IMG/VR virus record: IMGVR_UViG_3300008624_000613
Coordinates: 1 to 21,081 of that record
Strand: one strand, 5' to 3'
Length of the DNA stretch: 21,081 nucleotides
From: a virus
Each line of letters opens with the position of its first letter. The first letter of the stretch is position 1. The notes beneath the pieces were generated by a model, which made no database searches, was not told the DNA's origin, and was given only the letters and a program-made list of their open reading frames with translations. Below, in pieces: positions 362 through 20,930 of this stretch. The position numbers and the translations under genes are program-made.

Positions 362-369
362 CTTAAATA
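362..369 (+). promoter_or_regulatory. T4-type late promoter (CTTAAATA)
   Basis: TAAATA core ending at 369. T4 late promoters are a single box about 10 bases before the start site, which puts +1 at 375, exactly the A of the downstream ATG. No Shine-Dalgarno sequence is present. It lies 12 bases after the terminator stem. Confidence 0.75.
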
Positions 370-374
370 TCAGT

Positions 375-1241
375 ATGGAACACAGCAAAGATTATTCAGA
401 AAAAATATTAAAAAAAATTGATGACGATTTACAAGATTCAGATCAAACAATTAAAAACTTAAAAGCACACACAGAAGTTAATGCACTCAAAACAGGTAAG
501 AAACTAGAGTACGGAAAAAGTCGTTGGGACTATGAAAAGAAAAGAGCATTAGAAAGAGGTGCATATCATTTTGACTGGAGCAAAAAAGATAATATTGAAG
601 ATGTGTTAATGTTCCACGGTAACATTGATATGGATTGTGATTACTTTATCAAAACATACGGTGACGCCGCATTAGACAACGCAGTGCATTGGGCAACACG
701 AAACAAAAGTGTTGGCGGAAACTATGCAATAGATCAAGAAGTATATGATATAGTTAGATCAGGTGGTGATCCAGAAAGTAAAATATATGGTAGAGCGAAT
801 ATGTTTACTGATCCAAAAGCGATTGCACTTGCTGAAGGACTTCTAGGGCTCTATGATTACGAATTAAAATTACACTCTCAGGTATGTGGTCAATTATTAC
901 ATATGCACATGGACAACTTTGCGGCAAGGCTAGACAGACAAAATACGTTTGACGAGCTTGATTACGATGTTGATCCAAAAAAAGTACATAGGTTTGTAGT
1001 ATTCTTAAACGATTGGAGTATGGGACAAATATGGCATCAAGGTACAGCAACACATACACATTGGAAAGCAGGAGATATTATTAGTTGGCATTGGCAAGAC
1101 TTTCCACACGGTACAGCAAATATGGGTTGGGACACAAGATATATTTTGCAGTACACAGGTAGAACAACAGACAAAACTTGGAAATTTATTGAAGGAACTA
1201 ATAAAGATTCCAAGCATACTTTAGACATTCATAATGGATGA
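375..1241 (+). CDS. 2OG-Fe(II) oxygenase-family protein
   Basis: A 288-residue protein. The first 60 residues are charged and helical. The C-terminal half looks like the double-stranded beta-helix fold of 2-oxoglutarate/Fe(II) dioxygenases: H178-x-D180 (in HMHMD) as first iron ligands, H245 (in FPHGTAN) as distal ligand, and R255 (in TRYILQY) in the place of the 2-oxoglutarate-binding arginine. Such enzymes hydroxylate or oxidise proteins, nucleic acids or small molecules; the substrate is not evident here. T4-like marine phages commonly carry several of these proteins. The ATG at 375 coincides with the predicted +1 of the late promoter, implying a leaderless message. The 3' end overlaps the next gene by 8 bases, suggesting translational coupling. 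The ligand pattern is clear; activity is inferred. Confidence 0.8.
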   Translation: MEHSKDYSEKILKKIDDDLQDSDQTIKNLKAHTEVNALKTGKKLEYGKSRWDYEKKRALERGAYHFDWSKKDNIEDVLMFHGNIDMDCDYFIKTYGDAALDNAVHWATRNKSVGGNYAIDQEVYDIVRSGGDPESKIYGRANMFTDPKAIALAEGLLGLYDYELKLHSQVCGQLLHMHMDNFAARLDRQNTFDELDYDVDPKKVHRFVVFLNDWSMGQIWHQGTATHTHWKAGDIISWHWQDFPHGTANMGWDTRYILQYTGRTTDKTWKFIEGTNKDSKHTLDIHNG

Positions 1242-1434
1242 AAAAAAGAGATCACTAGCTAAAGTCGTTTCATGGAGATTAATTGGGTTAATAGTATGGC
1301 CAACGGTTAGTTACGCAGTGACAGGTAATTGGGCTGAAACAGGAATACTAACAGGAGCATACTTGTTTATGACTTTAATGTACTACGTTCATGAACGTGT
1401 TTGGGATAAAATTAAGTGGGGAAGAGACAAATAA
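1234..1434 (+). CDS. DUF2061-like small membrane protein
   Basis: A 66-residue protein beginning with a charged K-K-R-S-L-A-K segment and S-W-R, then two hydrophobic segments (about residues 14-30 and 37-52), then Y-Y-x-H-E-R-V-W and a basic C-terminus. This arrangement (K-x-x-S-W-R near the start and a YxHERxW motif at the end of the second helix) is what I recall of the DUF2061 family of small predicted inner-membrane proteins, whose function is unknown. The start overlaps the oxygenase stop by 8 bases with no obvious ribosome binding site, so it is probably translated by coupling. Its presence directly after the oxygenase may be functional or only positional. Confidence 0.75.
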   Translation: MDEKKRSLAKVVSWRLIGLIVWPTVSYAVTGNWAETGILTGAYLFMTLMYYVHERVWDKIKWGRDK

Positions 1435-1447
1435 ACAGTATTTCCAA

Positions 1448-1475
1448 TAGACTTTTAATATAATTCTGCTATAAT
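1448..1475 (+). promoter_or_regulatory. Possible sigma-70-type promoter
   Basis: TAGACT (1448-1453) and TATAAT (1470-1475) are separated by 16 bases, with a second TATAAT at 1459-1464. This would start transcripts near 1482, just inside the adjacent late-promoter box. The very AT-rich context makes chance matches likely, but a closely similar TAGAC...TATAAT pair stands upstream of nrdA. Confidence 0.4.
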
Positions 1476-1479
1476 ATTA

Positions 1480-1487
1480 CTTAAATA
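1480..1487 (+). promoter_or_regulatory. T4-type late promoter (CTTAAATA)
   Basis: TAAATA core ending at 1487; predicted +1 at 1493, one base before the ATG at 1494. There is no Shine-Dalgarno sequence between box and gene. Confidence 0.7.
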
Positions 1488-1493
1488 CCATAT

Positions 1494-1793
1494 ATGCAGA
1501 ATGAAACTAGAAGTTTACTGGAAGAATTAACTAATATGCCCTTGTCAAAAGACAAGGAAAATGTAGTAGAAAGCAGAGCATCTCACATTATTGAATCTGC
1601 TATAAGACTTATATCCTTCATTAGAGAAAACTTTGATCCCGAGACTGCATATAAACTAGAAAAACGATTTCATTCATCTATTAAAAATATGGATAGTAAC
1701 AAATTTTCAAAAGGTGTTGCTCGCATTAAAGAAAATAGAGACATTAAAGATAATGTTCTAAAAATTAAAGATGGTGAATACAAAGAGGACTAA
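1494..1793 (+). CDS. Small phage protein of unknown function
   Basis: A 99-residue protein, highly charged (Lys, Glu, Asp, Arg) and predicted mostly helical, with no membrane segment, no cysteines and no motif I recognise. The centre (about residues 28-47) is an amphipathic helix with Ile/Leu spacing, followed by a basic stretch, then a charged tail ending KED. It is preceded by a late promoter and possibly an early-type one, and is followed after 2 bases by the next gene, so the two are co-transcribed. Co-expression with the ligase-like protein downstream is the only functional hint. Confidence 0.75.
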   Translation: MQNETRSLLEELTNMPLSKDKENVVESRASHIIESAIRLISFIRENFDPETAYKLEKRFHSSIKNMDSNKFSKGVARIKENRDIKDNVLKIKDGEYKED

Positions 1794-1795
1794 CC

Positions 1796-3016
1796 ATGTT
1801 GATAGAAGATGTCCTATTAGAATTTAAAAGGACCCACCTAGAACATATAGAAGATATTATTATTACAGATGGCTACAATGGAGGCAAAGCTGTAATAGAT
1901 TACTTCCGTGGATTATTAGTAACACTTCAAGGCACGTCGTCTGAAGCTATGTCTGTTTCAGTTAAATGGGATGGAGCACCTGCCGTTGTATGTGGTACTC
2001 ATCCTGAAACTGGAAAATTCTTTGTAGGTACTAAATCAGTATTTGCTCAAAATGCCAAAGTAAACTACACTAAAAAAGATATAGCAAACAATCATGGAAC
2101 AGAAGATTTAGGACAAAAACTATTAAAATGTCTTGTACACTTAAAAAAATTAAACATACAAGGAGTAGTACAAGGAGACCTACTGTTTACTGACAATGAC
2201 ATTGTAAGAAAAAACTTTAATAATGTTCCACATTTAACATTTAAACCTAACACCATTACATACGCAGTACCAGAAGATTCTGATATTGGTAGACAAATAG
2301 ATACTGCTAAAGTAGGAATTATATTTCATACAACATACAATGGTGAAGTACTTGCTGATATGACAGCATCCGCAGGAGCAGACACTGAATCATTTTCAAA
2401 ATTACCCGATGTATTTTTTGACAATGCAACATACAAAGATGTGTCAGGCTCTGCTAAATTTACAGCAGAAGAGACACAAAAATTTATGAGTGGTATTGAA
2501 AAGTTAGAAGGACTACTTAATAATGTACCACGTAATCTTTCAGACTTGTTAGGACAAAACAATGACTTTGTGGGTTACTTCCAATTATATATTAATGCAA
2601 TGGTTAAACAAGGACAACTACCAAACAATATAAATCAATTTTTACAAGGTTTTAAAAAGTTTTATGCAGAAAGAATGCAACAACAAATTGCAGGATTAAA
2701 AGCACAAAAGGCATTACAATTAAGACAAGATAAAATGAAACAAATGCCAGTATTCATGGCTAGAATTAAAAAACCTTTACAAGCGATGCTAACATTTTAT
2801 AAGTCAGTACAACTATTAAAAGGCTTTGTACTTAAAAAAATGAACCAAGCAATGGCTATTGGCTCTTTTGCACAAACTAACAATGGACTAGAAGTAACTG
2901 ATCCAGAAGGATTTGTTGCTGTTGATAAAACTGGTAATGCTGTTAAACTTGTAGATAGATTAGGGTTCTCAAGAAGAAACTTGGCTGTTGTCAAAAAATT
3001 CCAAAAAACTAATTAA
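1796..3016 (+). CDS. Conserved-type phage protein with covalent nucleotidyltransferase (ligase-like) motifs
   Basis: A 406-residue protein. Residues 57-60 are K-W-D-G, matching the KxDG motif I of ATP-dependent DNA/RNA ligases and mRNA capping enzymes, in which the lysine is nucleotidylated. Further candidate motifs follow in family order: V-V-Q-G-D-L-L (124-130, motif III-like), K-V-G-I-I-F-H-T-T-Y (172-181, IIIa-like), E371-G-F-V374 (motif IV, EGxV) and V-K-L-V (383-386, motif V, with one lysine instead of the usual KxK). Between about 220 and 350 lies a helical, Gln/Lys-rich insertion absent from minimal ligases. I believe this corresponds to a family of unknown function found in T4-like marine phages (possibly annotated DUF6267, from memory). 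It could be a divergent RNA/DNA ligase or an inactive relative. The 3' end overlaps the minus-strand gene by 48 bases. Confidence 0.8.
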   Translation: MLIEDVLLEFKRTHLEHIEDIIITDGYNGGKAVIDYFRGLLVTLQGTSSEAMSVSVKWDGAPAVVCGTHPETGKFFVGTKSVFAQNAKVNYTKKDIANNHGTEDLGQKLLKCLVHLKKLNIQGVVQGDLLFTDNDIVRKNFNNVPHLTFKPNTITYAVPEDSDIGRQIDTAKVGIIFHTTYNGEVLADMTASAGADTESFSKLPDVFFDNATYKDVSGSAKFTAEETQKFMSGIEKLEGLLNNVPRNLSDLLGQNNDFVGYFQLYINAMVKQGQLPNNINQFLQGFKKFYAERMQQQIAGLKAQKALQLRQDKMKQMPVFMARIKKPLQAMLTFYKSVQLLKGFVLKKMNQAMAIGSFAQTNNGLEVTDPEGFVAVDKTGNAVKLVDRLGFSRRNLAVVKKFQKTN

Positions 3017-4045
3017 AGTTTTATTAACTTCCTCACTTAACTTTTCTTTATTAAAAAGTGTATCATAATTATGTTGTCTTAATGCAATTGTCTGACGATA
3101 TATATCTTGCCAATCTTTTGTTCTTAAATCTTTACACAACGAAACAATCTTATCAATTTTTTTATCTTTATCGTTTTCTAAATCATACGATTCATCAAAA
3201 TAAGAACCAAATGTTTTAAATCCTATCTCTCTTAATTTTTGTAGATACAAATGATTACCATGGACTACAAATACGTGTTGAGCCATAATAGGTTTCCATA
3301 TTTTCTCAGTCATAAAAACGTCTGTATCATTATCGTTAGTTTCAGAAACTATTGAACAGACTGTATCAACATATGGCATTTCTGTTATGTCTTGATCCTT
3401 GCCCCAACGTGGATAGTCTTTAGGATCTATACCTGGTAACTCATACTTCTTTTCCAATCTACGTTTTGGTTCTCCTTCAACAAACGTGTATATACTATTA
3501 TCTAATACACCTTGTTCCAACAATTTATTGTAAAGTTTAACTCTATGCTTTCTTGGTTCTTTATTCAAATATAAGAAGTCGTGTTTTTTATACCAGTAAC
3601 TACCAAAGTGATCATGAGTAAATTTAAACTTATTGTTTAAATGCTTATCATACATATACCACCAGAACCAACTAACGCCACCTGTCCAATTAAATGACGT
3701 TACTCCTTCTATATCGTTTGGATATATATTACCAGCATTAATATTTTCTTGTGATTCCCAAGGTGACGCCATTATAAATTTAAACCCTTGACTATGCAAT
3801 AGCTTAACTCTTTTTAATAACTCTACTTGATATTCTGAATTAGCACATATTCTATTATTAGCAATAGTTCTATCAATAAAAGCAAACCGTCTATTATATG
3901 AATCTAAATCATAATTGTGTAGAGTGTAGTACTCTCCTGTATAATCTATCTTTTGATCTGGTAAAGAGTGTGCATCTAAAAACCGTTCATAAGACTGATG
4001 ATTACCAGTTTTCATTAGATCAGTTAGGAAAAAATTACGTTGCAT
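2969..4045 (-). CDS. Probable glycosyltransferase
   Basis: A 358-residue protein and the only gene on the minus strand. The C-terminal part contains F-M-T-E-K-I-W-K-P-I (244-253) followed by a hydrophobic strand (VFVVHG) and an L-x-x-L-R-x-x-G-F-K-T-F segment (268-279) ending in D-E-S-Y-D. That pattern resembles the nucleotide-sugar-binding C-terminal half of fucosyltransferase- or exostosin-like glycosyltransferases. An aromatic-rich centre (W-F-W-W-Y near 126-130) and an R-K-H-R-V-K-L-Y-N-K-L helix (165-175) precede it. There is no signal peptide or membrane segment, so it would act in the cytoplasm. The ATG at 4045 has no clear ribosome binding site; an alternative Met is at residue 11. 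It is convergent with the ligase-like gene (48-base overlap) and divergent from the gene at 4064. Family assignment is tentative. Confidence 0.6.
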   Translation of the reverse strand: MQRNFFLTDLMKTGNHQSYERFLDAHSLPDQKIDYTGEYYTLHNYDLDSYNRRFAFIDRTIANNRICANSEYQVELLKRVKLLHSQGFKFIMASPWESQENINAGNIYPNDIEGVTSFNWTGGVSWFWWYMYDKHLNNKFKFTHDHFGSYWYKKHDFLYLNKEPRKHRVKLYNKLLEQGVLDNSIYTFVEGEPKRRLEKKYELPGIDPKDYPRWGKDQDITEMPYVDTVCSIVSETNDNDTDVFMTEKIWKPIMAQHVFVVHGNHLYLQKLREIGFKTFGSYFDESYDLENDKDKKIDKIVSLCKDLRTKDWQDIYRQTIALRQHNYDTLFNKEKLSEEVNKTLISFLEFFDNSQVSS

Positions 4046-4050
4046 CTATC

Positions 4051-4058
4051 TATAAATA
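4051..4058 (+). promoter_or_regulatory. T4-type late promoter (TATAAATA)
   Basis: Exact T4 late consensus, ending at 4058; predicted +1 at 4064 coincides with an in-frame ATG. It lies only 5 bases from the minus-strand start codon, so it restarts + strand transcription after the reversed gene. Confidence 0.85.
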
Positions 4059-4063
4059 TGTGT

Positions 4064-4915: not shown

Positions 4916-4916
4916 A

Positions 4917-5519
4917 ATGCATCCATCTGAGTTTTGGACAGTAGACGGAAATCATTCTCAACCAACACTAATAAACGATACCACTGGACGATATAGACAA
5001 GAACGACAAAGAACAAACGCATTAAGATATGTTAAAAGTAAAAGAAATTGTATAGACATAGGCAGTCATGTAGGCCTATGGACTCGCGAACTTGCATCAA
5101 TATTTGAACAAGTATATTGTTTTGAACCTAATCCAATCTTTATAGAATGTTTTAAAAAAAATATAACTGAAACTAACGTACAATTATTTCAATATGGATT
5201 GTCTAATAAAGAACATACAACATCAATGAAAGAAACCAATTCCACAATGATGACTGAAGAGCCTGGCAGTATACAATGTCGAACACTTGATAGTTTTAAT
5301 TTAAACAACATAGACTTTATTAAAATTGATGTCGATGGTTTTGAAGTTAGAGTTTTAAACGGTGCAATTGAAACTATTACAAGAAACAAACCAGCTATTA
5401 ATATTGAAATGAAAAAAGAAAAAAGGCCAGCAACTTGTATAGAGATAAGAAAAATCCTCAGTCATTTAAGCTACTATCCTCGAAAAAGAACTAGATCTGA
5501 CATAATCTGGACAAAATAG
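4917..5519 (+). CDS. FkbM-family methyltransferase
   Basis: A 200-residue protein from the ATG at 4917, directly after the preceding TAA; an in-frame ATG at 4887 would add 10 residues and overlap the upstream gene by 29 bases. SAM-binding motif I is C-I-D-I-G-S-H-V-G-L-W-T (45-56), followed by the acidic end of strand 2 in C-F-E-P-N-P (68-73). The hallmark of FkbM enzymes, I-D-F-I-K-I-D-V-D-G-F-E followed by V-L-N-G-A, is at 132-150. The family O-methylates sugars, polyketides or other hydroxyl groups using S-adenosylmethionine. With a probable glycosyltransferase nearby, a glycan substrate is possible, but nothing in the sequence specifies it. The length is somewhat short for the family but all core motifs are present. 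Confidence 0.9.
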   Translation: MHPSEFWTVDGNHSQPTLINDTTGRYRQERQRTNALRYVKSKRNCIDIGSHVGLWTRELASIFEQVYCFEPNPIFIECFKKNITETNVQLFQYGLSNKEHTTSMKETNSTMMTEEPGSIQCRTLDSFNLNNIDFIKIDVDGFEVRVLNGAIETITRNKPAINIEMKKEKRPATCIEIRKILSHLSYYPRKRTRSDIIWTK

Positions 5520-5550: not shown

Positions 5551-5558
5551 ACTAAATA
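5551..5558 (+). promoter_or_regulatory. T4-type late promoter (ACTAAATA)
   Basis: TAAATA core ending at 5558; predicted +1 at 5564. Unlike most late promoters here, it leaves a long leader (57 bases) before the gene at 5621. Confidence 0.7.
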
Positions 5559-5566
5559 GATGCAAC

Positions 5567-5587
5567 ATGACACCGGAGCGGTGTCGT
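5567..5587 (+). promoter_or_regulatory. 5' leader hairpin
   Basis: GACACC (5569-5574) pairs perfectly with GGTGTC (5580-5585), extended by T-G and A-T pairs, with a five-base loop GGAGC that can close to GAG. It begins 3 bases after the predicted +1. There is no T-tract, so it is not a terminator; a hairpin at the 5' end commonly protects mRNA from decay. Confidence 0.65.
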
Positions 5588-5608
5588 AGTCATTAAATCA
5601 GATAATAA

Positions 5609-5614
5609 GGAGGA
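5609..5614 (+). promoter_or_regulatory. Strong ribosome binding site (AGGAGG)
   Basis: AGGAGG lies six bases before the ATG at 5621. It is the best Shine-Dalgarno sequence I found in the window, and most other starts have none. Confidence 0.85.
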
Positions 5615-5620
5615 TTTAAA

Positions 5621-6040: not shown

Positions 6041-6048
6041 ATTAAATA
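6041..6048 (+). promoter_or_regulatory. T4-type late promoter (ATTAAATA)
   Basis: TAAATA core ending at 6048; predicted +1 at 6054, seven bases before the ATG at 6061. The TTAAATA starts 12 bases after the terminator stem, the same distance as at 363. Confidence 0.7.
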
Positions 6049-6887: not shown

Positions 6888-7124
6888 ATGTATATAAAAA
6901 TAGCACCAGGTGTTCAAGTTTGGATTACTAATGAACAATTAAACTTCATTAACAAATATAAAAACCATATATCATTCCGAAGCTCGGAATTAGAAATAAC
7001 AGAAATTGAAACGGCTAAAATATTAGCATATAAGAGTATTTTTGTAAGAAAAAAACTTGACAACGATGTTCAATACGCTGTAAATAGACATATAAAATTT
7101 GTTAGTAATGCCAATAAAAAATGA
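6888..7124 (+). CDS. Small phage protein of unknown function
   Basis: A 78-residue basic protein with no cysteine, no membrane segment and no recognised motif. It begins with a short beta-like stretch (I-K-I-A-P-G-V-Q-V-W-I) and continues with charged helices, ending N-A-N-K-K. It follows the XhlA-like gene by 14 bases and overlaps the next gene by 17 bases, so it is within the same late transcript. There is no promoter or clear Shine-Dalgarno sequence of its own. Conservation in related phages would be needed to support a role. Confidence 0.65.
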   Translation: MYIKIAPGVQVWITNEQLNFINKYKNHISFRSSELEITEIETAKILAYKSIFVRKKLDNDVQYAVNRHIKFVSNANKK

Positions 7125-7625: not shown

Positions 7626-7633
7626 ACTAAATA
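7626..7633 (+). promoter_or_regulatory. T4-type late promoter (ACTAAATA)
   Basis: TAAATA core ending at 7633; predicted +1 at 7639, exactly the ATG of the downstream gene. An out-of-frame ATG at 7634 would be upstream of +1 and thus not transcribed. Confidence 0.75.
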
Positions 7634-8879: not shown

Positions 8880-9881
8880 ATGAGTGAATATATTAACATT
8901 CATAATTTAAATATTATCAACGCCGAACTTACCAATTATTGTAATGCATCTTGTCCAATGTGTCCACGGTTTGATTTTGATTTAAATTTAATAAAAAGTA
9001 TTACCAACAATTCACACACTACATTAGAAACAATAAAAAACAATATAGGACCTAAAGTATTATCTCAATTAAAAAGATTTTACTCATGTGGTGTATTAGG
9101 AGATGGCTCTATGAATCCTGAATGTTTAGAAATTTATGAGTATATAAAACGTTGTGGGAATTCTAATTTATCATTAAACACAAATGGTGGAGCAAGAGCT
9201 ACTGACTTTTGGAAAGAGTTAGCCAAGTTAAATGTTGAAGTGACATTTTCAATTGACGGATTGGAAGATACAAATCATTTGTATCGTAGAAATATTAAAT
9301 GGGATAAACTAATGAACAATGTAGAAGCTTTTATATCAGCAGGTGGAGAAGCAAATTGGGATTTTTTAATATTCAAACATAACGAACACCAAATAGAACA
9401 AGCAGAAGTATTATCTAAAAAATTAGGATTTATTGATTTTAGGAAAAAATATACAACAAGATGGAATGACTTTAACAGTGATGGTGATTGGATACAACGA
9501 GAATCAATACAGGTAGATGATTATAAATTAGAAAAAGTTGTTAAAAAAACAAAGGCCCCAGGTGGATCCATTACACAAAAGTCTAAAATTACAGATACTT
9601 TCACAACACGAAAAATTAATTGCTTTTCATTTCATAAAAATAAGAGTGAAATTTATATAGCGGCAAACGGAGATGTTAGTCCTTGCTGTTGGTTAGGTGA
9701 TTTAAAAATACACGAAGCAAAAAACATTATAAACGATTATACAAAAGTTAATATTAATCATTGTAGTCTCGATGAAATATTATCAGGTGACTTCTTTAAA
9801 GAATTAGCAAACGGTATTGAAGGACAACAAAATGCTTACCGTCTACAAACTTGTTATCATACCTGTGGAGTTCAAGCATGA
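8880..9881 (+). CDS. Radical SAM protein with C-terminal SPASM-type cluster
   Basis: A 333-residue protein. The radical SAM signature CxxxCxxC is C21-N-A-S-C25-P-M-C28, which binds the 4Fe-4S cluster that cleaves S-adenosylmethionine to a 5'-deoxyadenosyl radical. Downstream T-N-G-G (101-104) and the S-I-D-G strand (124-127) fit the partial TIM-barrel core. The C-terminal part has further cysteines, C248, C269, C270, C295, C325 and C329, as in SPASM/twitch domains that hold auxiliary Fe-S clusters. SPASM enzymes often modify peptides or sugars; the substrate here is unknown. The gene overlaps the next radical SAM gene by ATGA, indicating coupled translation and a likely joint function. No late-promoter box is visible upstream, so it probably reads through from 7626. 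Confidence 0.93.
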   Translation: MSEYINIHNLNIINAELTNYCNASCPMCPRFDFDLNLIKSITNNSHTTLETIKNNIGPKVLSQLKRFYSCGVLGDGSMNPECLEIYEYIKRCGNSNLSLNTNGGARATDFWKELAKLNVEVTFSIDGLEDTNHLYRRNIKWDKLMNNVEAFISAGGEANWDFLIFKHNEHQIEQAEVLSKKLGFIDFRKKYTTRWNDFNSDGDWIQRESIQVDDYKLEKVVKKTKAPGGSITQKSKITDTFTTRKINCFSFHKNKSEIYIAANGDVSPCCWLGDLKIHEAKNIINDYTKVNINHCSLDEILSGDFFKELANGIEGQQNAYRLQTCYHTCGVQA

Positions 9882-11164
9882 GTAAAACTTACTGTGATTT
9901 TCCTTTCGAACATCAATATGTTCATATGTCTGGTTCTGTAAGATTATGTTGTGCCACTATGGAAAATGTTACAGATAAAAAAGGCAATAGAGTACATATG
10001 AATAATGATTCATTACAAAAAATATGGAATAATGAATACATGAAACAAGTAAGACTTAAAATGAAAAACGGAGAACAGTTGAAAGCCTGTTCAAAATGTG
10101 TTGATCAAGAAGCACGTGGTTACAAATCTATGCGTAAGGAAATCAGTCAAGAAAAAAATTTAAACAAAGTTAAAACCGATGGATCTATAGATATAATGCC
10201 ACACTCAATGGAACTACACTTTGGTAATATGTGTAATCTAAAATGTAAAATGTGTGGACAAGACTATTCAAATCAAATAGGAAAAGAATTATTAGAAATA
10301 GGAAAAAACGATAAAGAATTTTTAAATTGGGTATACAAACAAAGTGGCAATGTTAATAATTGGACTAACAATCTATCAGTAGAATACACATGGTTTCAAA
10401 ATGAAAAAACTAAAAATAAACTTATAGATTATATAAGCAAACATATCACACACTTAACTATTATTGGTGGTGAACCAACAGTTATACCAGAGTTCTATGC
10501 ATTACTAGATTATTGTGACGATAAAGATACACTAAAAAATAAAGACATAACGATAGTAACTAATCTTACTAATACCAATCCTAAAATGACACAATGGTTT
10601 CCAAAAATGAAGAACTGGACGATATGGGCAAGTATAGATGGTCTTGGAGACATAACCGAGTACATTAGATATCCTAGTAGCTTTAAAAAAGTAGTTGAAA
10701 ATTTAAATTTTTATAAAAAACTTGTACTAGAAAGTGGTAATGGAAAAATAATGTTTAGTCCTGCTATACAATTATTAAACATTCATCAATTAGATGATAT
10801 GCTAAAATGGTTTATAGATTTTGCTGACGGTAATTGGGGCAAACAATTTAATGTATCATGGATGTCTCAAGTTTGGTATCCTCGTATTTGCAATTATGAT
10901 ACTGCACCAAAACAATATAGATTACAAGTAGCTAAGAAACTTGAAAAAAGTATAGAATATTTTAGTACATACAAATCTATATCAAACTTTTATAACAAAC
11001 AAATAGAAAATTTAAGAGGAGATTTTCTAAATACAAGTGAAGAACAAAACCTACAACAATCATTTATTAGATATAATGACACACAAGATAACCACAGAAA
11101 AAATAAAACGTGGCGAAAATTACTGCCAGAGCTAGAACAATCATTGACAGAGCACCTAGCATAA
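9878..11164 (+). CDS. Radical SAM protein with N-terminal twitch domain
   Basis: A 428-residue protein from the ATG at 9878, which overlaps the previous TGA (ATGA); an in-frame ATG at 9851 would overlap further. Unusually the auxiliary cysteine domain comes first: C6, C24-C25, C71 and C74, resembling the SPASM/twitch cluster normally found after the core. The radical SAM motif C119-N-L-K-C123-K-M-C126 follows, then a G-G-E-P motif (about 195-198), typical of SAM binding. This N-terminal twitch arrangement is annotated in T4-like marine phages as a twitch domain-containing radical SAM protein. Function is unknown; as partner of the preceding enzyme it may act on the same substrate. Confidence in the chemistry class is high, and in the role low. 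Confidence 0.93.
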   Translation: MSKTYCDFPFEHQYVHMSGSVRLCCATMENVTDKKGNRVHMNNDSLQKIWNNEYMKQVRLKMKNGEQLKACSKCVDQEARGYKSMRKEISQEKNLNKVKTDGSIDIMPHSMELHFGNMCNLKCKMCGQDYSNQIGKELLEIGKNDKEFLNWVYKQSGNVNNWTNNLSVEYTWFQNEKTKNKLIDYISKHITHLTIIGGEPTVIPEFYALLDYCDDKDTLKNKDITIVTNLTNTNPKMTQWFPKMKNWTIWASIDGLGDITEYIRYPSSFKKVVENLNFYKKLVLESGNGKIMFSPAIQLLNIHQLDDMLKWFIDFADGNWGKQFNVSWMSQVWYPRICNYDTAPKQYRLQVAKKLEKSIEYFSTYKSISNFYNKQIENLRGDFLNTSEEQNLQQSFIRYNDTQDNHRKNKTWRKLLPELEQSLTEHLA

Positions 11165-11173
11165 TATAAAATA
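11165..11173 (+). promoter_or_regulatory. Variant late promoter (TATAAAATA)
   Basis: One base longer than the T4 consensus TATAAATA. Its last A is at 11173, six bases before the ATG at 11179, the same geometry as the clear late promoters. The extra A makes it a weaker call. Confidence 0.4.
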
Positions 11174-11883: not shown

Positions 11884-11889
11884 TAAATA
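11882..11889 (+). promoter_or_regulatory. T4-type late promoter (AATAAATA)
   Basis: TAAATA core ending at 11889, overlapping the end of the exonuclease gene; predicted +1 at 11895, three bases before the ATG at 11898. Confidence 0.7.
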
Positions 11890-11897: not shown

Positions 11898-13481
11898 ATG
11901 CCGATAGTCCAAATTTCGAGAATACAACACAGACGTGGAAAAGCCACTGATCTACCGCAATTAGCGGCTGGAGAAATAGGCTGGTCTATTGATGATCAAA
12001 AATTATACATAGGAAACGGTACCGTGGCAGACGGTGCTCCTGCAGTAGGTAATACAGAAATTATTACTTCAGGATCTTCTGCATTTTCAACAGCACTTAC
12101 TCATGTTTATCAAGGCTATCTCGGTGCTTCAACTCCAATATTAACAGGCGCTAGTGGTAATGTTAGTAGAACATTACAAGCAACATTAGATGACTACGTT
12201 TCAATTAAGGCTTTTGGAGCAGTAGGAGATGGCTCAACAGCAGACTTAACAGCAATACAAAGAGCACTTGAAGAATTATATTCAGACACAGATCAAGCAG
12301 ATGTAAGAGCACATAGAGTTTTATTCTTTCCAGCAGGAATTTATAACGTATCAGGATCTATTAAGATTCCACCTTATGCACATTTAAGAGGTGAAGGTCC
12401 AGGCAAAACAGTATTTGCTCAGTCAGGTGGAAATGCACCTGTCGCAGTAACAGAAGATAATAACGGAAATGCATTTGGATCAATTACTACAACTACACCA
12501 ACACAAATTCAAATAGAAGGAATTTGTTTTAAAAATGGTGAAGCATACGGTGGATTGTCAATTGATTGTGCAACTCACGTGTATCTACGAAATTGTAAAT
12601 TTGTAGGAACATATGTAGCAGGAGGAACAGATGCGCCTAACTCAAAAGGTATCACAGTTAGAAGTACAAATACTTACAGTTCCTCAAACGTTGTATTTGA
12701 TCAATGTCAATTTTCAAAATTTGCTAGACTAGTTGATTTAGATTATGATGTTACAAGTGTAAGATTTCATAATTGTGATTTTACAATTGGATACTACGGT
12801 GCTAGAATTGGAGAAGACACTGATGGTTCTGCAAATGGTTTAACAGTAGGCCCTAGAGATGTTCAATTTAATGGTAATAGTTGGAGCAATATTAGTCAAC
12901 AAGCTATTTGGGTTTCAGGTGCTAATGGAGACATAAGAAATATTATTTCACAAGGTAATTGGTATGGACTAAATGTAGCAAATAATTTTGAAGGTGTTGG
13001 ATCAATTCGTGAAGTGCCTATAATACAATATGACAGAGATGAATGCAGTTCAGCATTAGACTTTTTTGAAAGAACAGATTTAAGAAGAGCAGACGGCAGT
13101 TCAGAATTAAATGCCGCTCCAGAATTACAAGGAATTGGAATATCAACAAAAGCAATTAAACAAGCAACTTTACTCGACAATCAATCGGCCACCACAATAA
13201 ATGAATTTCCAGCATTGGCAGGAAAATCGTTAATTATAAAATATAAAATAGTAAGAGGAACATTAGACAGAACTGGAGAACTTATTGTTAGTGCATCAAC
13301 AAACGGTGTACAATATGACGATACGTTTACTGAAAGCGGTTCAGATGTTGGAGTAACTCTTTCAGCAGTATTAGATGACAAAGACTCTACTTCTGGTAGC
13401 GAAACAGTTGCTTTAAAATATACTACAACATCAACTGGCACGAATGCTACACTCGAATACCAAACTACAATAATGGTATAA
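11898..13481 (+). CDS. Tail fibre or tailspike with beta-helix domain
   Basis: A 527-residue protein. The N-terminus (about 4-41) has I-S-R-I-Q-H-R-R-G, then L-A-A-G-E-I-G-W and L-Y-I-G-N-G, a motif shared by many phage tail fibres and by the N-terminal domain of the Bordetella phage tropism determinant, which joins the fibre to the virion. Residues 104-127 (K-A-F-G-A-V-G-D-G-S-T-A-D-L-T-A-I) are the start of a pectate-lyase-3-type beta-helix, followed by Asn/Gly/Thr-rich coils to about 370. Residues after 400 form a separate beta-rich tip. It would be a trimeric receptor-binding fibre or spike, possibly with glycan-cleaving activity. Catalytic residues cannot be assigned by eye. It is late-expressed with a 3-base predicted leader. 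Confidence 0.9.
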   Translation: MPIVQISRIQHRRGKATDLPQLAAGEIGWSIDDQKLYIGNGTVADGAPAVGNTEIITSGSSAFSTALTHVYQGYLGASTPILTGASGNVSRTLQATLDDYVSIKAFGAVGDGSTADLTAIQRALEELYSDTDQADVRAHRVLFFPAGIYNVSGSIKIPPYAHLRGEGPGKTVFAQSGGNAPVAVTEDNNGNAFGSITTTTPTQIQIEGICFKNGEAYGGLSIDCATHVYLRNCKFVGTYVAGGTDAPNSKGITVRSTNTYSSSNVVFDQCQFSKFARLVDLDYDVTSVRFHNCDFTIGYYGARIGEDTDGSANGLTVGPRDVQFNGNSWSNISQQAIWVSGANGDIRNIISQGNWYGLNVANNFEGVGSIREVPIIQYDRDECSSALDFFERTDLRRADGSSELNAAPELQGIGISTKAIKQATLLDNQSATTINEFPALAGKSLIIKYKIVRGTLDRTGELIVSASTNGVQYDDTFTESGSDVGVTLSAVLDDKDSTSGSETVALKYTTTSTGTNATLEYQTTIMV

Positions 13482-13625: not shown

Positions 13626-16088
13626 ATGATAAAACTAGATACGATAAATATGCATATAAAATCCAAAGCAAAAAAAGGAAAAAAAACTTACACAATGCCA
13701 ACCGCCAGTACAATGAACATTTCAATCACCAAACGTGATGGCAGAAAAGAATCTCTAGACATTAATAAAATTCATTTCGTTGTTGAAGAGGCCTGTGAAA
13801 ATTTACCTGGGGTCTCGGCATCACAGATAGAAATGAATGCCAACATACAATTTTATGATGGCATGACTACAAAAGATATTCAAAATGTTTTAGTACGTTC
13901 AGCAAATGATTTAATAACTCTCGAAACTCCAAATTACCAATACGCCGCGGCAAGATTACTTTTATATGATGTAAGAAAAGAAGCACACGGACAATATGAA
14001 TATACTCCTTTATTAAAATTAATTTTAAGAAATGTTAGAAATGGTGTGTATGATAAAGACATTGTAGAAAAATATTCTAAAACAGAAATTAAAAAATTAA
14101 ACTCTTGGATACGAAGAGAAAGAGATTTAAAATTTACCTATGCAGGGTTAAGACAAGTCTGTGACAAATATCTAGTACAAGATAGAAGTACAGGAGAATT
14201 ATACGAAACTCCACAAGATATGTATATGATGATAGCGGCCACGCTATTCGCTAACTATCCTGAAAAAACAAGACTATCCTACATTAAAAAATATTACGAT
14301 GCAATCTCATTACACAAAATTAACATTCCAACTCCAGTTATGGCTGGAGTAAGAACACCAGTAAGACAATTTGCAAGTTGTGTCTTAGTTGACATAGACG
14401 ACACGTTACCTTCTATCTTCTCAGGTGATATGGCAATTGGTTTATATGTTGCTAGAAGAGCAGGGATAGGAATTAATGCAGGGCGTATAAGAGGAATCAA
14501 TTCTAAAATTAGAGGTGGAGAAGTTCAACACACAGGAGTGATTCCGTTTCTAAAAAAATTCGAAAGCACTGTAAGATGTTGCACACAGAACGGAGTACGT
14601 GGAGGTAACGCAACTGTCCACTTCCCAATATGGCATCCTGAAATAGAAGATATACTGGTTTTAAAAAATAATAAAGGTACAGAAGATAACAGAGTAAGAC
14701 GTATGGATTATTCTATACAACTTTCTAAATTGTTTTATGAAAGATTTATTAATAACGAAAACATTACTCTTATATCACCACAAGTAGCACCAGGATTATA
14801 TGATGCATTTGGTACAGAAGACTTTGATGACTTATATGAAAAATACGAAGATGACAAAAGTATTCCAAAAAAAGTTGTTAAAGCACAAGATTTATTTTTT
14901 GATTTATTAAAAGAAAGAGCGGAGACAGGACGGATCTATATTATGAATATTGATCACTGTAATACTCATTCTTCTTTTAAAGACAAAGTATCTATGTCAA
15001 ACTTATGTCAAGAAATTACATTACCCACAACACCTATACAACACATTGACGATGACAAGGGAGAAATTGCACTTTGTATTCTTTCCGCTGTTAATGTTGG
15101 TACACTAAATGATGTAAGTGAATTAGAAAACTTATGCGATATATCAGTAAGAGCATTAGATCAAATTATCGACTATCAAAGATATCCAGTTAAGGCGGCA
15201 GAAATAAGCACTAAAGCAAGACGTTCTTTAGGTATTGGGTATATAGGTTTGGCACACTATCTAGCAAAAAATGGTGTAAAATATTCTGATGAAAGAGCTT
15301 GGGAATTAGTTGATAGACTTTCCGAAGCATTTCAATATTATCTATTAAGAGCATCATGTGACCTTGCAGAAGAAAAAGGTAAATGTTCTGCATTCGATAA
15401 AACAAAATATGCAGATGGTGACTTACCACTTGATCACTATAAAAAAGAAGTAGACAAAATTATACCACACAAACAAAGAATGGCATGGGAAAGTTTAAGA
15501 AAAGATATTGCAAAATATGGATTAAGAAATTCCACTTTATCTTCTCAAATGCCAAGTGAAAGTTCTTCCGTAGTTAGTAACGAAACAAACGGAATTGAAC
15601 CACCTAGAGCATTACTATCAATTAAAAAATCTAAAAAAGGACCATTAAAACAAATCGTTCCAGGTTATCCTAAACTTAAAAATGATTATACTTTACTATG
15701 GGATATGCCAAACAACGAAGGATATATTAATATTGTAGCAATAATGCAAAAATATTTTGATCAAGCAATTAGTGGTAACTGGTCTTATAATCCTAAACAC
15801 TATGAAAATAATGAAGTACCTTTATCAGTAATGGCAACAGATATGCTTAACACATACAAGTATGGTTGGAAAACTTCTTACTATCAAAACACTTATGACT
15901 TTAAAGGTGAAGAAGAAGATGTACAACCAGCAGGATATGGCGATACAGTTGAAACTGACGAAGGTGAAGAAGTAGAATTACAATTATCAGATAGACAAAT
16001 CGTTAACGGTCATGCTAAAGTTAACACTAGTGTAGAAGTCACTGCCAGTGCTAATAAAGAAGATGACTGTGATGCCTGCACAATATAA
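13626..16088 (+). CDS. nrdA: Ribonucleoside-diphosphate reductase, alpha subunit (class Ia)
   Basis: An 820-residue protein that closely follows the E. coli NrdA pattern and makes deoxynucleotides from NDPs with NrdB. An N-terminal ATP-cone (from I-T-K-R-D-G, about 34-115) is present, so allosteric activity control is likely. Active-site residues are visible: C252 and C484 (redox pair, E. coli C225/C462), N459-L-C461-Q-E463 (thiyl radical cysteine with N and E partners), and Y752-Y753 of the radical-transfer path. The C-terminal thioredoxin-reducible pair is C815-x-x-C818. The tail between Y753 and this pair is about 62 residues and acidic, roughly twice as long as in E. coli. The start is uncertain: the ATG at 13695 (or 13713) fits the usual N-terminus better, and the 23 extra residues are Lys-rich. 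A TAAATA box lies at 13645-13650 inside the extension. Confidence 0.97.
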   Translation: MIKLDTINMHIKSKAKKGKKTYTMPTASTMNISITKRDGRKESLDINKIHFVVEEACENLPGVSASQIEMNANIQFYDGMTTKDIQNVLVRSANDLITLETPNYQYAAARLLLYDVRKEAHGQYEYTPLLKLILRNVRNGVYDKDIVEKYSKTEIKKLNSWIRRERDLKFTYAGLRQVCDKYLVQDRSTGELYETPQDMYMMIAATLFANYPEKTRLSYIKKYYDAISLHKINIPTPVMAGVRTPVRQFASCVLVDIDDTLPSIFSGDMAIGLYVARRAGIGINAGRIRGINSKIRGGEVQHTGVIPFLKKFESTVRCCTQNGVRGGNATVHFPIWHPEIEDILVLKNNKGTEDNRVRRMDYSIQLSKLFYERFINNENITLISPQVAPGLYDAFGTEDFDDLYEKYEDDKSIPKKVVKAQDLFFDLLKERAETGRIYIMNIDHCNTHSSFKDKVSMSNLCQEITLPTTPIQHIDDDKGEIALCILSAVNVGTLNDVSELENLCDISVRALDQIIDYQRYPVKAAEISTKARRSLGIGYIGLAHYLAKNGVKYSDERAWELVDRLSEAFQYYLLRASCDLAEEKGKCSAFDKTKYADGDLPLDHYKKEVDKIIPHKQRMAWESLRKDIAKYGLRNSTLSSQMPSESSSVVSNETNGIEPPRALLSIKKSKKGPLKQIVPGYPKLKNDYTLLWDMPNNEGYINIVAIMQKYFDQAISGNWSYNPKHYENNEVPLSVMATDMLNTYKYGWKTSYYQNTYDFKGEEEDVQPAGYGDTVETDEGEEVELQLSDRQIVNGHAKVNTSVEVTASANKEDDCDACTI

Positions 16089-16092
16089 TATA

Positions 16093-16100
16093 ATTAAATA
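16093..16100 (+). promoter_or_regulatory. T4-type late promoter (ATTAAATA)
   Basis: TAAATA core ending at 16100; predicted +1 at 16106, three bases before the nrdB ATG at 16109. Confidence 0.65.
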
Positions 16101-16108
16101 CAACTATA

Positions 16109-17209: not shown

Positions 17210-17219
17210 AATCTCTATT

Positions 17220-17227
17220 ATTAAATA
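17220..17227 (+). promoter_or_regulatory. T4-type late promoter (ATTAAATA)
   Basis: TAAATA core ending at 17227; predicted +1 at 17233, one base before the ATG at 17234. It heads the three-gene enzyme block. Confidence 0.7.
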
Positions 17228-17233
17228 CCTTTA

Positions 17234-18124: not shown

Positions 18125-18132
18125 TTAAAAAT

Positions 18133-18807
18133 ATGAACGTTTTAATTACAGGTGGAAACAGAGGTCTTGGTCTAGAATTTGCTAAACAATTTTCAAAATT
18201 AGGTTATAATGTTATTACCGGAGTAAGAAATATTAATAATGTTTTAGAATTAAAGAAACTTCCTAATGTTAAAATTTATAAACTTGATTTATTAAATCCT
18301 AATAGTATCTATGAGTTTTCTAATAACGTTGGGGACACCCCTATTGACATATTAATTAATAATGCTGGAAGGTTTACGTATGATCACGAAACTAAAGTAG
18401 ATGTTAAGATATGGCAAGACGAAATAATGACTAATGCTATAGGACCTATATTGTTAACACATCAATTAAAAAATAATATACTAGCAGGAACAAAGAAAAA
18501 AATTGTATTTGTATCTGCACAAAAGGCTAGTATAGGTTGGCATAGACACAGAGGAAAATTTACAATATATAGAACATCAAAAGCGGCAATGAATGCCGCG
18601 GCAAAAAGTTTATCAGTCGATTGGAAAAATGATAACATTGTTATTACTTGTATTAACCCTGGTTGGTCTCGAACTGATATGGGTGGTGCCGATGCAGATC
18701 AATCACCAGAAGAAACAGCAGAAAATATAATAAAGTCAATTAACAAAATGGATGAATCAATGAACGGAACATTTATAGATTGGCAAGGCAACTCTATACC
18801 ATGGTAA
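18133..18807 (+). CDS. Short-chain dehydrogenase/reductase (SDR)
   Basis: A 224-residue protein of the classical SDR fold. It shows the dinucleotide-binding T-G-G-N-R-G-L-G (6-13), L-D-L at 51-53, N-N-A-G (76-79), N101, S128 in V-F-V-S-A, and the catalytic Y146-R-T-S-K150, followed by I-N-P-G-W. All members of the N-S-Y-K tetrad are present, so it should be an active NAD(P)-dependent oxidoreductase. Residue R33 after strand 2 suggests NADPH, though this is uncertain. Family members act on sugars, lipids and small alcohols or ketones. It is 8 bases after the oxygenase gene and 3 bases before the amidotransferase gene, so one transcript is expected. Confidence 0.95.
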   Translation: MNVLITGGNRGLGLEFAKQFSKLGYNVITGVRNINNVLELKKLPNVKIYKLDLLNPNSIYEFSNNVGDTPIDILINNAGRFTYDHETKVDVKIWQDEIMTNAIGPILLTHQLKNNILAGTKKKIVFVSAQKASIGWHRHRGKFTIYRTSKAAMNAAAKSLSVDWKNDNIVITCINPGWSRTDMGGADADQSPEETAENIIKSINKMDESMNGTFIDWQGNSIPW

Positions 18808-18810
18808 CTT

Positions 18811-20580
18811 ATGTGTGGAATATACGGAATAACTGATCATAATCCTAAATTTATACAAAATTATATAGACACTTGTAACTATCGAGGTCCAGATGGATCC
18901 AAAGTTTGGTGTGATCCAAATTATAACGTAACACTTGGACACAATCTTTTAAGTATAATGGCAAACCCAAAACAATCAATGCAACCTTGGATAACTCCCA
19001 AAGGAAACACACTTGTTTATAATGGTGAAATTTTTAATTACTACGAACTTAAAACAAAATACAAACAATTTACAGATACTACAGGTTGCGATACCGAACT
19101 ACTTGCTTGGGGACTGGATACATTTGGACTAGCATTTTTAGAAGAAATAGATTCTATGCATGGCTTTGCATACTATGAACCAAAGAAGAAACAAATTACA
19201 TTAAGCAGAGACCATGCAGGAATTAAACCTGTATACTATGCAGAAATAAAAGAAGGATTAGTATTTGGTTCTGAAATAAAAGGACTAATAAACAAAGTAC
19301 CCAATGCTCATAATATTAATCCATTTGCTATGAAATCGTTAGAACTTATTGGAGTTAATCCATTACGTGATACATTTTTTACAAATATTAAAAAAGTACT
19401 ACCCGGAGAAAGTATTGTTTATGATATAGAAAATAAAAAAATAAAAAATAGTTATAGAATCTATACGAAACCTACCTCAAATCATAAATTTGATCCTGAA
19501 GAATATAGAGATGTAATGAGTAAAACTGTTAAAATGACTACTATTGGAAGAAGAAAAATAGGTTCATTTTTAAGTGGAGGATTAGATTCAAGTGTAATGG
19601 TATATGAAGCAAAAAAGCACTTAGGTTCCATGGATTGTTTTACACATCACTATGATCCTTTAATAGAAAATGATTGGGAAGATTTTCATTCTGACTTTGA
19701 TACTGCAAAAAGATTTACTAAAGACTTTAATTTAAATTTGAATCCTGTTTTGTGTACTCCTAAAGATTATAAAGATAATTTTTTAAAAGCAGTATATCAT
19801 TATGAAGAACCTATATTAAATTGTAGTATGCCTGCTTATTACCAAATGAGCAATTATATGAAAAATAAAGGTATTGTTGTAGCATTGACAGGAGATCTAG
19901 GAGATGAAATGCTATGTGGATACAAACATCATTACAAGTTATTATCATCAAATATTAAAAGTTGGAAAGAATTAATTAATAAAGAATTATTAACTTATAT
20001 TAGAGAACCTGTACCAATTGATCAAAACTTACCAACTAAACAAGATGTGCTGGAAGAGTTTATTAAAATTTATAACGATAGTAGCTTGTGGAATCCTGAT
20101 GACGTGTGTGCATCTTTTATAGGTCTAGAATGTCTAAGTTTTGCATCAGAGGAATATTTTGGATTTGCTGATAAATTTGGAATGGCAAATTCTATTGAAT
20201 CACGATTTCCTTATGCTACAAAACTTTTTATGAATTATGCATTATCCATTCCAAGCAAAGACAAAATACACAGTTTAGAACTTAGAAAAAGTTTACCTAG
20301 GAAAGCATACAAAAATATATTACCCAACTACATTATTGATAAAAGAAAAACAGGATGGGACAGTCCTGCACACAACTGGATAACTGAAAAGAAAAATAAA
20401 GAACTATTTGATTTCTATAAAAAATCTTTGTCTGTTAATAGACATATTCCCACATGGTTTGGTCGTGAATGGGTTAAGTCTTATAAAATGATTGCTCCAT
20501 ATAATAGCAATCCTATATATTCAAAAAAAGGTAGGTGGGAAATATGGACCAGGAACGATAAAACGTTATTTCCGATATAA
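18811..20580 (+). CDS. asnB: Asparagine synthase-type glutamine amidotransferase
   Basis: A 589-residue two-domain protein. The N-terminal class II glutaminase starts with catalytic C2 (MCGIYG) and has R25-G-P-D-G29, N-G-E-I-F-N-Y (71-77) and R-D-H-A-G-I-K-P (133-140). The ATP-pyrophosphatase domain has S-G-G-L-D-S-S (255-261), T-G-D-L-G-D-E (360-366, a variant of the usual SGEGSDE) and E-S-R-F-P-Y (463-468). Glutamine-derived ammonia would be passed to an acyl-adenylate. The product may be asparagine, but related enzymes amidate sugars or peptides, and the altered second motif together with the adjacent oxygenase and dehydrogenase leaves that open. All catalytic parts appear intact. It is last in a three-gene run. 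Confidence 0.92.
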   Translation: MCGIYGITDHNPKFIQNYIDTCNYRGPDGSKVWCDPNYNVTLGHNLLSIMANPKQSMQPWITPKGNTLVYNGEIFNYYELKTKYKQFTDTTGCDTELLAWGLDTFGLAFLEEIDSMHGFAYYEPKKKQITLSRDHAGIKPVYYAEIKEGLVFGSEIKGLINKVPNAHNINPFAMKSLELIGVNPLRDTFFTNIKKVLPGESIVYDIENKKIKNSYRIYTKPTSNHKFDPEEYRDVMSKTVKMTTIGRRKIGSFLSGGLDSSVMVYEAKKHLGSMDCFTHHYDPLIENDWEDFHSDFDTAKRFTKDFNLNLNPVLCTPKDYKDNFLKAVYHYEEPILNCSMPAYYQMSNYMKNKGIVVALTGDLGDEMLCGYKHHYKLLSSNIKSWKELINKELLTYIREPVPIDQNLPTKQDVLEEFIKIYNDSSLWNPDDVCASFIGLECLSFASEEYFGFADKFGMANSIESRFPYATKLFMNYALSIPSKDKIHSLELRKSLPRKAYKNILPNYIIDKRKTGWDSPAHNWITEKKNKELFDFYKKSLSVNRHIPTWFGREWVKSYKMIAPYNSNPIYSKKGRWEIWTRNDKTLFPI

Positions 20581-20600
20581 TAATAGCGGTTTTCTACTAC

Positions 20601-20608
20601 TATAAATA
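20601..20608 (+). promoter_or_regulatory. T4-type late promoter (TATAAATA)
   Basis: Exact T4 late consensus ending at 20608; predicted +1 at 20614, two bases before the ATG at 20616. Confidence 0.85.
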
Positions 20609-20615
20609 ATACATT

Positions 20616-20930
20616 ATGCCAGCAATAAGCAGAGATCGAATAGACCTAGCAAAAACCGGTCACCCCTGTACATTCCAAATAGGATGTATAGCAACACAAG
20701 GTTCTGTTGTGGCAAATGGCATAGCAGTTCTTAGACCAGGTGATCGTTGTTTACCACATACTATATTAAGGAGGTGTGGCAAATATCCTTGTTGTTTACC
20801 TCACCGAGCAAAAGTTAATATGGGTTCTAGTTCAGTATTTGCTCTAGGCATACCAGTGGCAAGAGCTGGTGACTCAACTGATCAAGGAGCATTGTTTCAA
20901 GGTTCACCTAATGTTTTTGCTGGAGGATAA
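20616..20930 (+). CDS. PAAR-domain baseplate spike tip protein (gp5.4-like)
   Basis: A 104-residue protein of PAAR type, the small cone that caps the tail spike and helps pierce the host envelope. Typical features are the G-H-P-C segment (15-18), Gly-rich turns throughout, V-L-R-P-G-D-R-C (38-45), and a C-terminal S-S-S-V-F-A-L-G-I-P-V-A-R-A-G-D (71-86) followed by G-S-P-N-V-F-A-G-G. Histidines H16, H48, H63 and several cysteines (C18, C24, C45, C54, C59, C60) could supply the metal ligands that stabilise PAAR tips. It matches T4 gp5.4 in length and role. Transcribed from an exact T4-type late promoter with a 2-base predicted leader. The next gene is 2 bases downstream. Confidence 0.92.
   Translation: MPAISRDRIDLAKTGHPCTFQIGCIATQGSVVANGIAVLRPGDRCLPHTILRRCGKYPCCLPHRAKVNMGSSSVFALGIPVARAGDSTDQGALFQGSPNVFAGG
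20922..20926 (+). promoter_or_regulatory. Ribosome binding site (GGAGG)
   Basis: GGAGG inside the last codons of the PAAR gene, six bases before the ATG at 20933. It fixes the start of the truncated last gene. Confidence 0.75.

Follow-up and report, generated by a model that had tools for sequence, protein, structure and literature searches.

Probable T4-type late promoters spaced for predicted leaderless or near-leaderless messages in a phage contig and its relatives

The probable T4-type late promoters considered here lie in a 21,081-nucleotide stretch of viral DNA (IMG/VR record IMGVR_UViG_3300008624_000613, positions 1 to 21,081; hereafter the window), in which eight TAAATA boxes stand 6 to 9 bases ahead of start codons. 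These boxes are best read, with a probability that we put at roughly 0.85, as T4-type late promoters spaced for leaderless or near-leaderless late messages. Transcription would begin about six bases past the box's final A, either at the A of the start codon or no more than about 3 bases away from it, and translation would be initiated at the 5'-terminal AUG with no Shine-Dalgarno (SD) pairing; genes further along each operon would be read by coupling or from an SD of their own. We infer that a gp55-type sigma factor drives the late boxes, and the 5' ends and the ribosome loading are predicted in the same manner. The reading draws on features of the DNA itself: the box, its exact spacing, the conservation of that spacing at genes 4064, 7639, 1494 and 20616 (genes are named by the position of their start codon), the confinement of late leaderless starts to ATG, and the absence of the spacing peak from controls.

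Throughout, d denotes the distance from the last A of a box to the A of the ATG, and in counts centred on boxes an ORF-opening ATG is one that opens an open reading frame (ORF) of at least 50 amino acids. The window holds 18 copies of TAAATA (16 on the + strand, 2 on the - strand), and 8 of the 18 are followed by an ORF-opening ATG at d=6-9, where chance would supply 0.07 per position (pooled binomial P 3.4e-10). Among the + strand copies associated with genes, 8 of 13 fit this pattern; three other + strand copies lie within genes, with ends at 8913, 11033 and 16209. Both minus-strand copies also lie within genes. The initial annotation had located the eight boxes and their ATGs correctly (Table 1), as well as a ninth pair, a TATAAAATA ending at 11173 before ATG 11179 (d=6), which it took for a variant of the late box and which is discussed separately below. 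This variant occurs twice more, with ends at 13243 and 13250, within gene 11898-13481. According to PMC1524935 the late box of T4, TATAAATA, spans -13 to -6 with the RNA start as +1, and +1 therefore falls six bases after its last A.

Table 1. Promoter elements of the window, with the distance to the start codon and the predicted leader (bases).
Element	Coordinates	Strand	Distance	Start codon and gene	Predicted leader
TAAATA, late-type box	364..369	+	d=6	ATG 375	0
TAAATA box	1482..1487	+	d=7	ATG 1494, virion structural protein phrog_11854	0-1
TATAAATA box	4051..4058	+	d=6	ATG 4064	0
TAAATA box	7628..7633	+	d=6	ATG 7639, virion structural protein phrog_14154	0
TAAATA box	11884..11889	+	d=9	ATG 11898, tail spike-like with Mtd_N and pectate-lyase domains	3
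TAAATA box	16095..16100	+	d=9	ATG 16109, NrdB	3
TAAATA box	17222..17227	+	d=7	ATG 17234	0-1
TATAAATA box	20601..20608	+	d=8	ATG 20616, PAAR protein	0-2
sigma70-type promoter TTGACA-17-TAAAAT	11144..11172	+	-10 last T 7 bases before ATG	ATG 11179, exonuclease, phrog_298	0
TAAATA box	5553..5558	+	d=63	ATG 5621	57, with stem-loop and AAGGAGGA
TAAATA box	6043..6048	+	d=13	ATG 6061	7
TAAATA box, overlapping the previous gene's stop codon	6525..6530	+	d=44	ATG 6574	38
TAAATA box	7081..7086	+	d=22	ATG 7108	16
TAAATA box	13645..13650	+	d=45	ATG 13695, nrdA	39, with AAAGGAAA

A count of box-to-ATG distances in relatives, which the initial annotation had proposed as a check, reveals a sharp peak at d=6 far above expectation. 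Around nrdB (the best 80 of 598 IMG/VR loci) the distances fall into two modes, one peaking at 6-10 and the other a wide hump that begins near 20; at d=6, 46 ORF-opening ATGs are observed vs 3.57 expected, and the phages HTVC008M and Mosig give 12 vs 0.71 and 6 vs 0.87, respectively. Genes of HTVC008M with the box at d=6 include those annotated as DNA end protector, head completion, tail completion and base plate wedge. In a set of 326 sequences with 2916 boxes (duplicate boxes were removed here and in the set of 359 that follows), such ATGs number 297 at d=6, 67 at d=7, 44 at d=8 and 44 at d=9, with 40 at d=1-5 together; beyond d=9 there is a trough and then a broad second hump near d=19-33, and 1611 of the 2916 boxes have no ORF-opening ATG within 60 bases. 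The 359 sequences comprise the groups where the peak had already been seen, with the distant gp4 and gp55 loci (L125-L143, L517-L555) left out, and among their 3261 distinct TAAATA copies ATG occurs at d=6 345 times vs 12.2 expected; neither GTG (4 vs 5.2) nor TTG (4 vs 7.3) is enriched at this position. The 522 sites at d=6-9 in this set fall into 108 protein families, 50 of them with at least 2 members. When no motif is preset, the top position-specific hexamer in nearly the same set (3400 distinct starts) is TAAATA at d=6, 259 vs a background of 15.6. (The same distant loci are absent from this hexamer analysis and from the downstream-ATG and neighbour-orientation analyses given below.) Comparison of TAAATAN5ATG with the reversed pattern gives a total of 144 vs 27 for 16 IMG/VR records, the single records ranging from 24 vs 6 (G010, a 242 kb relative) down to 3 vs 2 (G011); in G008, which has 44% GC at its nrdB locus, the counts are 8 vs 0. 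Within G001, a longer contig of the window's own species, 13 genes have a box at d=6-10 and 6 at 11-50.

Late promoters might lie near ATGs only through genome compactness, the working messages coming from upstream promoters or the true starts lying downstream. Leaderless genes do follow short same-strand gaps (median 23), and chance boxes are common in AT-rich DNA. However, compactness predicts a broad spread that includes d=1-5, and the 297 sites at d=6 stand against the mere 40 in that whole range; AT-rich SAR11 DNA (400 kb, 30% GC) shows no peak, with 5 sites at d=6 among 1167 boxes; and among leaderless genes with a neighbour the upstream gene is divergent in 79 of 390, so that translational coupling is impossible there. 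As for true starts further downstream, an in-frame ATG with an SD within the next 40 codons is rarer behind leaderless sites (11/522) than behind SD-led starts (21/322). Compactness is a very unlikely explanation. The d=6 peak is also missing from T4 (70-169 kb, the region used throughout; 1 vs 0.51 expected), Syn9 (0 vs 0.54), phiM12 and Cr30, and AG-345-F15 gives 1 vs 0.48. SAR11 host DNA has neither a TAAATA-to-ATG nor a TATAAT-to-ATG peak, and SAR11 genomes used as AT-rich controls give 63 vs 46 and 59 vs 45 for TAAATAN5ATG and its reverse. An alphaproteobacterial host as the cause of the pattern is unsupported, since an ORF-opening ATG at d=6-10 follows 0 of 65 boxes in phiM12 and 0 of 27 in Cr30.

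The spacing is conserved among orthologues. (Upstream regions include contigs of the window's own species, with identical ones counted once; rows whose match started beyond residue 3, was close to the end of a contig or failed to reach an ATG, GTG or TTG were dropped, which at a 110-base margin removed, for example, 24 of 110 for gene 4064, 26 of 122 for gene 7639 and 4 of 95 for gene 11898. The standard view is 40 bases upstream; the boxes of genes 5621, 6574 and 13695 needed a longer one.) For gene 4064, whose upstream ORF (2969-4045) is divergent and which has an in-frame ATG at 4058 overlapping the box, a box stands 6-9 bases before the position aligned to ATG 4064 in 59 of 59 orthologue upstreams, and its family shows exactly d=6 in 56 of 56. 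The corresponding counts at d=6-9 are 56 of 60 for gene 7639 in the wider set (52 of 52 distinct upstreams in a narrower one), 7 of 8 for gene 20616 and 29 of 34 for gene 1494, where the other 5 are at d of at least 17: two of these begin with TTG and have the box at 24-25 bases together with an SD, and three further members begin with ATG, one with an SD. Genes 375 (2 of 3) and 17234 (1 of 1) have too few orthologues to judge. Upstream of NrdB gene 16109, 10 of 56 are at d=6-9, 2 are at 17 or more, and 44 have no box in 40 bases. A conserved GATAATTA-like stretch lies right before nrdB in loci L009, L011-L014, L016-L021, L023, L024 and L027, and is possibly another -10 element near the start.

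Start codon choice differs with the position of the box. When relatives of gene 11898 are aligned from the N-terminus, 28 of 61 have the box at d=6-9, all with ATG and none with an SD; 31 have an SD and start with GTG in 22 cases and ATG in 9 (Fisher P 2.3e-9 vs the leaderless class), the box lying at 17 bases or more in 25 of them and none being found within 40 bases in 6. The remaining 2 fit neither class. Across 21 query genes, late leaderless starts are ATG in 216 of 216, vs 354 of 426 for other starts (72 non-ATG), a comparison from which 11 starts with boxes at other spacings were left out.

The bases at the predicted start site also bear on its position. With bases counted from the last A of the box, box+5 (the base preceding the ATG at d=6) is a pyrimidine in 96% of the d=6 families (81). 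The 27 families at d=9 have a pyrimidine at box+5 in 87% and a purine at box+6 in 93%; for the 15 families at d=8 the corresponding figures are 81% and 70%. Because the same bases recur at d=8-9, the start signal seems tied to the box rather than to the ATG. A purine at box+6 is also found at late boxes with d=17-40 in Syn9 (21/23), Melnitz (20/21), AG-345-F15 (24/32), T4 (14/19) and HTVC008M plus Mosig (18/26), with hardly a preference in phiM12 (9/16). Taken together, the d=6 peak, the few sites at d=1-5 and the box+5/box+6 bases argue that the late messages are most likely leaderless or nearly so, with leaders of 0-3 bases.

No SD is seen in the window at any of the 7 genes with d=6-10, in agreement with the initial annotation, which had found no room for one. 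In the 80 nrdB loci an SD is present in 0 of 76 cases at d=6-10 vs 121 of 162 at d=17-45; at d=6-10 HTVC008M has 1 in 13 and Mosig 1 in 8. Genes without an SD often have A/T-rich upstream regions, and TAAATA could accordingly be an A/T-rich translation enhancer for such genes and not a promoter. In the 80 loci, however, 19 starts have TAAATA at d=6, where its permutations average 3.6 and reach at most 10, and 15 starts have it at d=9, where no permutation exceeds 7; at d=7 and 8 one permutation does reach 13, for which shifted copies of the box may account. Moreover, TAAATA recurs 17-45 bases ahead of genes that are led by an SD, and the box+5/box+6 bases track the box and not the ATG at d=8-9. 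The enhancer explanation is thus highly improbable. Two back-to-back boxes, each 6-9 bases from its own ATG, occur in nine distinct intergenic regions of 25-32 bp; as these were first seen in loci found with a gp4 query, they probably represent one gene pair. The same arrangement is present in HTVC008M at 18916-18943. The suggestion that genes inside operons rely on coupling is plausible. Among orthologues of gene 8504, 37 of 59 start with GTG, and 22 of those 37 lack an SD. CA-rich codons after the start were seen as well; they are not claimed as a feature, because large families dominate the count.

The ninth element, before the exonuclease gene 11179, is better read as a sigma70-type promoter (Table 1). 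A -10 box occupies -12 to -7, and the expected RNA start is ATG 11179 itself, which would give a leaderless message, probably of the early class. In 39 of 56 distinct orthologue upstreams a TTG-type -35 is paired with a -10 element that ends 7-9 bases ahead of the start; the distance from the -10 end is exactly 7 in 31 (26 ATG, 5 GTG), 8 in 7 and 9 in 1, and the other 17 are without such a pair. Shuffling reproduces the pattern in 0.8% of copies, and among 646 upstreams taken from the other query genes one has it. TAAATA lies within 48 bases in only 1 of the 56, and the late-promoter reading of the box ending at 11173 is rejected on these counts, although the leader of 0 bases first proposed for this gene is retained as a prediction. 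In related loci, TTGAC-TATAAT promoters show a peak at 6-8 bases from the start (13/82, 19/88, 31/149 and 9/100 sites in four sets in which orthologues were not collapsed), and 11 further sites of the first set, at d=1, are unexplained; elsewhere the counts at 6-8 bases are 3/31 in Melnitz, 1/17 in Syn9, 1/5 in T4 and 1/16 in SAR11. Since gene 11179 shows this spacing with a promoter of the sigma70 type, some early genes probably use the strategy as well.

The strategy is mixed, since leaders are retained at other late genes of this phage. The predicted leader of gene 5621 (5559-5620) has a strong stem-loop (z -4.9; -18.4 kcal/mol over 77 bases) and an extended SD, unlike its leaderless neighbours; TAAATA is found at d=63-69 in 9 of 9 orthologue upstreams, and an SD in 7 of 7. 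For gene 6574, TAAATA lies at d=39-59 in 63 of 63, and for nrdA (from 13695) at d=39-78 in 23 of 23, the window's box being inside the longest possible nrdA ORF (from 13626). Gene 7108 has its box at d of at least 17 in 24 of 28 orthologue upstreams in the 40-base view and, in the longer view, at 16-25 in 29 of 32 (exactly 22 in 23 of 32). Upstream of gene 6061 the picture is varied: 18 of 69 at d=6-9, 7 at 10-16, 2 at 17 or more, and 42 without a box in 40 bases.

The phage lineage to which the window belongs probably forms a jumbo-like branch within the T4 superfamily and is unlikely to be a close cyanophage. Among the named phages listed, the window's NrdB is about equally close to those of the Pelagibacter phage HTVC008M (66.8% identity) and the cyanophage S-RIM14 (66.9%). 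When 40 Syn9 and HTVC008M proteins (NrdB not among them) were used as queries against G001 and G002, which together give 149 kb of the window lineage, only NrdA was matched. Of 116 G002 proteins, 36 match 140 kb of G010, whereas 10 match Mosig and 9 HTVC008M. G010 encodes a gp55-type sigma (phrog_12791, E 2.6e-87), beside a gene that we take to be gp47-like, and the closest named relatives of this sigma are in PA5oct-like phages (47.5-47.9%), Phosso (47.7%) and Atu_ph07 (43.9%). The placement of the lineage follows from the G002-G010 matches and from these gp55 relatives. A gp55 is also annotated in HTVC008M. When gp55 loci are sorted by identity to G010, those at 40-59% give 5 vs 1.49 expected at d=6 and those at 67% or more give 30 vs 0.93; distant gp4 loci give 11 vs 0.52. 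In the jumbo relatives TAAATAN5ATG is not clearly more frequent than its reverse (Phosso 3/2, PA5oct 15/12, Atu_ph07 15/9, Sharanji 5/12). Predicted leaderless late promoters occur in the window lineage and, separately, in HTVC008M and Mosig. The phage-encoded ribosomal protein bS21 is carried by HTVC008M, by Mosig and by 16 of the 45 IMG/VR records (14 with matches above the cut-off), several of them of the window lineage; because it is also present in Melnitz, PA5oct, Atu_ph07 and Phosso, all without a strong peak, it is rejected as the cause and would be at most permissive. Agrobacterium phage Atu_ph07 (L557, 244-747) also has an annotated translation initiation factor 3 gene.

Several observations weigh against reading the boxes as leaderless late promoters. 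That an SD is missing at d=6-10 is mostly a matter of geometry, the box itself filling that space. A gp55 was found only in relatives; searches of the window and of two contigs of its lineage (56 kb and 93 kb), all of them fragments, gave none. The T4-type clamp (phrog_223) was not found in G010 and had matches in 3 of the 49 records, one of them weak. Other relatives show the trait weakly or not at all, and Melnitz has only 3 vs 0.51 expected at d=6. In the 359 sequences ATA (31 vs 13.3) and ATT (23 vs 14.9) are somewhat enriched at d=6, which is unexplained. In the sigma70 class, the 5 of 31 promoters at exactly 7 bases that precede GTG do not follow the ATG rule, and the five other late boxes of the window serve genes with leaders, four of the five being conserved. 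Finally, the d=7 class has no clear pyrimidine-purine signature. This last point, together with window spacings that span 6-9 and the one late box at d=13, favours an alternative in which the promoters are real but start at least 1 base off the T4 position, so that short leaders (about 1-10 bases) are made and the messages are not truly leaderless. On the other side, the lower limit at d=6 and the box+5/box+6 bases match the T4 position, and d=6 is held with great constancy in the gene 4064 family and in the HTVC008M tail-completion-like family (41/43). Such short leaders are unlikely. The leaderless reading of the initial annotation therefore stands, as a prediction, for the eight TAAATA promoters, where the d=6 peak, the conservation at the four genes with enough orthologues, the initiator-like bases and the ATG-only starts agree with it, and falls for the ninth as a late variant. 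Its broader claim that most late genes here are leaderless, unlike those of T4, holds in that the peak is present in relatives and not in T4, and has to be qualified by the five late boxes at longer spacing.

Some other genes of the window deserve mention. The product of gene 375 has no PHROG or Pfam match, but from a reading of its sequence looks like a 2OG-Fe(II) oxygenase; that of gene 17234 is likewise without a PHROG or Pfam match. The N-terminal Mtd_N domain of the tail spike-like product of gene 11898-13481 is that of a major tropism determinant. Two radical SAM genes lie in a row at 8880-11164, and SDR-like and asparagine synthase-like genes, so named by reading alone, at 18133-20580.

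The promoters described here share with the gp55-dependent late promoters of T4 the box itself and the purine favoured at box+6, and these phages also have boxes at least 17 bases ahead of other genes. They differ in that the boxes of T4, Syn9 and phiM12 lie at longer spacing (an SD follows such boxes in 17/19 cases in T4 and 9/23 in Syn9), whereas here many genes are predicted to be leaderless. Lambda cI is the leaderless message of a single phage gene. Like the leaderless messages of bacteria and of such single phage genes, those proposed here would begin at or close to the start codon, lack an SD and, in the late class, use AUG; in contrast to them, many structural genes of T4-superfamily phages would be involved, with the arrangement fixed by promoter-to-ATG spacing. 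The late promoters of phiKZ, in which a TATG motif overlaps +1, similarly join a promoter motif to a potential start codon, but they are served by a phage-encoded polymerase and their motif is other than TAAATA. As +1 is the G of TATG according to PMC4666361, the AUG is not the 5' end, and phiKZ was dropped as a precedent. T4-type late promoters and leaderless messages are each well known; in the limited collection of literature searched, as far as its accessible text goes, we found no paper that links the two, nor a systematic fusion of both across phage lineages.

A wider view can be offered only tentatively, and is somewhat less probable than its converse: early sigma70-type and late gp55-type promoters may both be fused to start codons, many messages being leaderless, and genes may switch between leaderless ATG forms and leadered forms with GTG or ATG plus an SD by small changes between box and start, perhaps with help from phage bS21. 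Phage transcripts in general are often leaderless, according to PMC5312081, and prediction of late promoters failed in pelagimyophages, according to PMC7029224; fusion of promoter and start codon may explain this failure, a link that is drawn here. If the reading of the late boxes is true, transcription starts and start codons would be predictable from sequence alone at 522 sites, and leaderless translation in SAR11 would become testable with the cultured phages HTVC008M and Mosig, both of which have the pattern.

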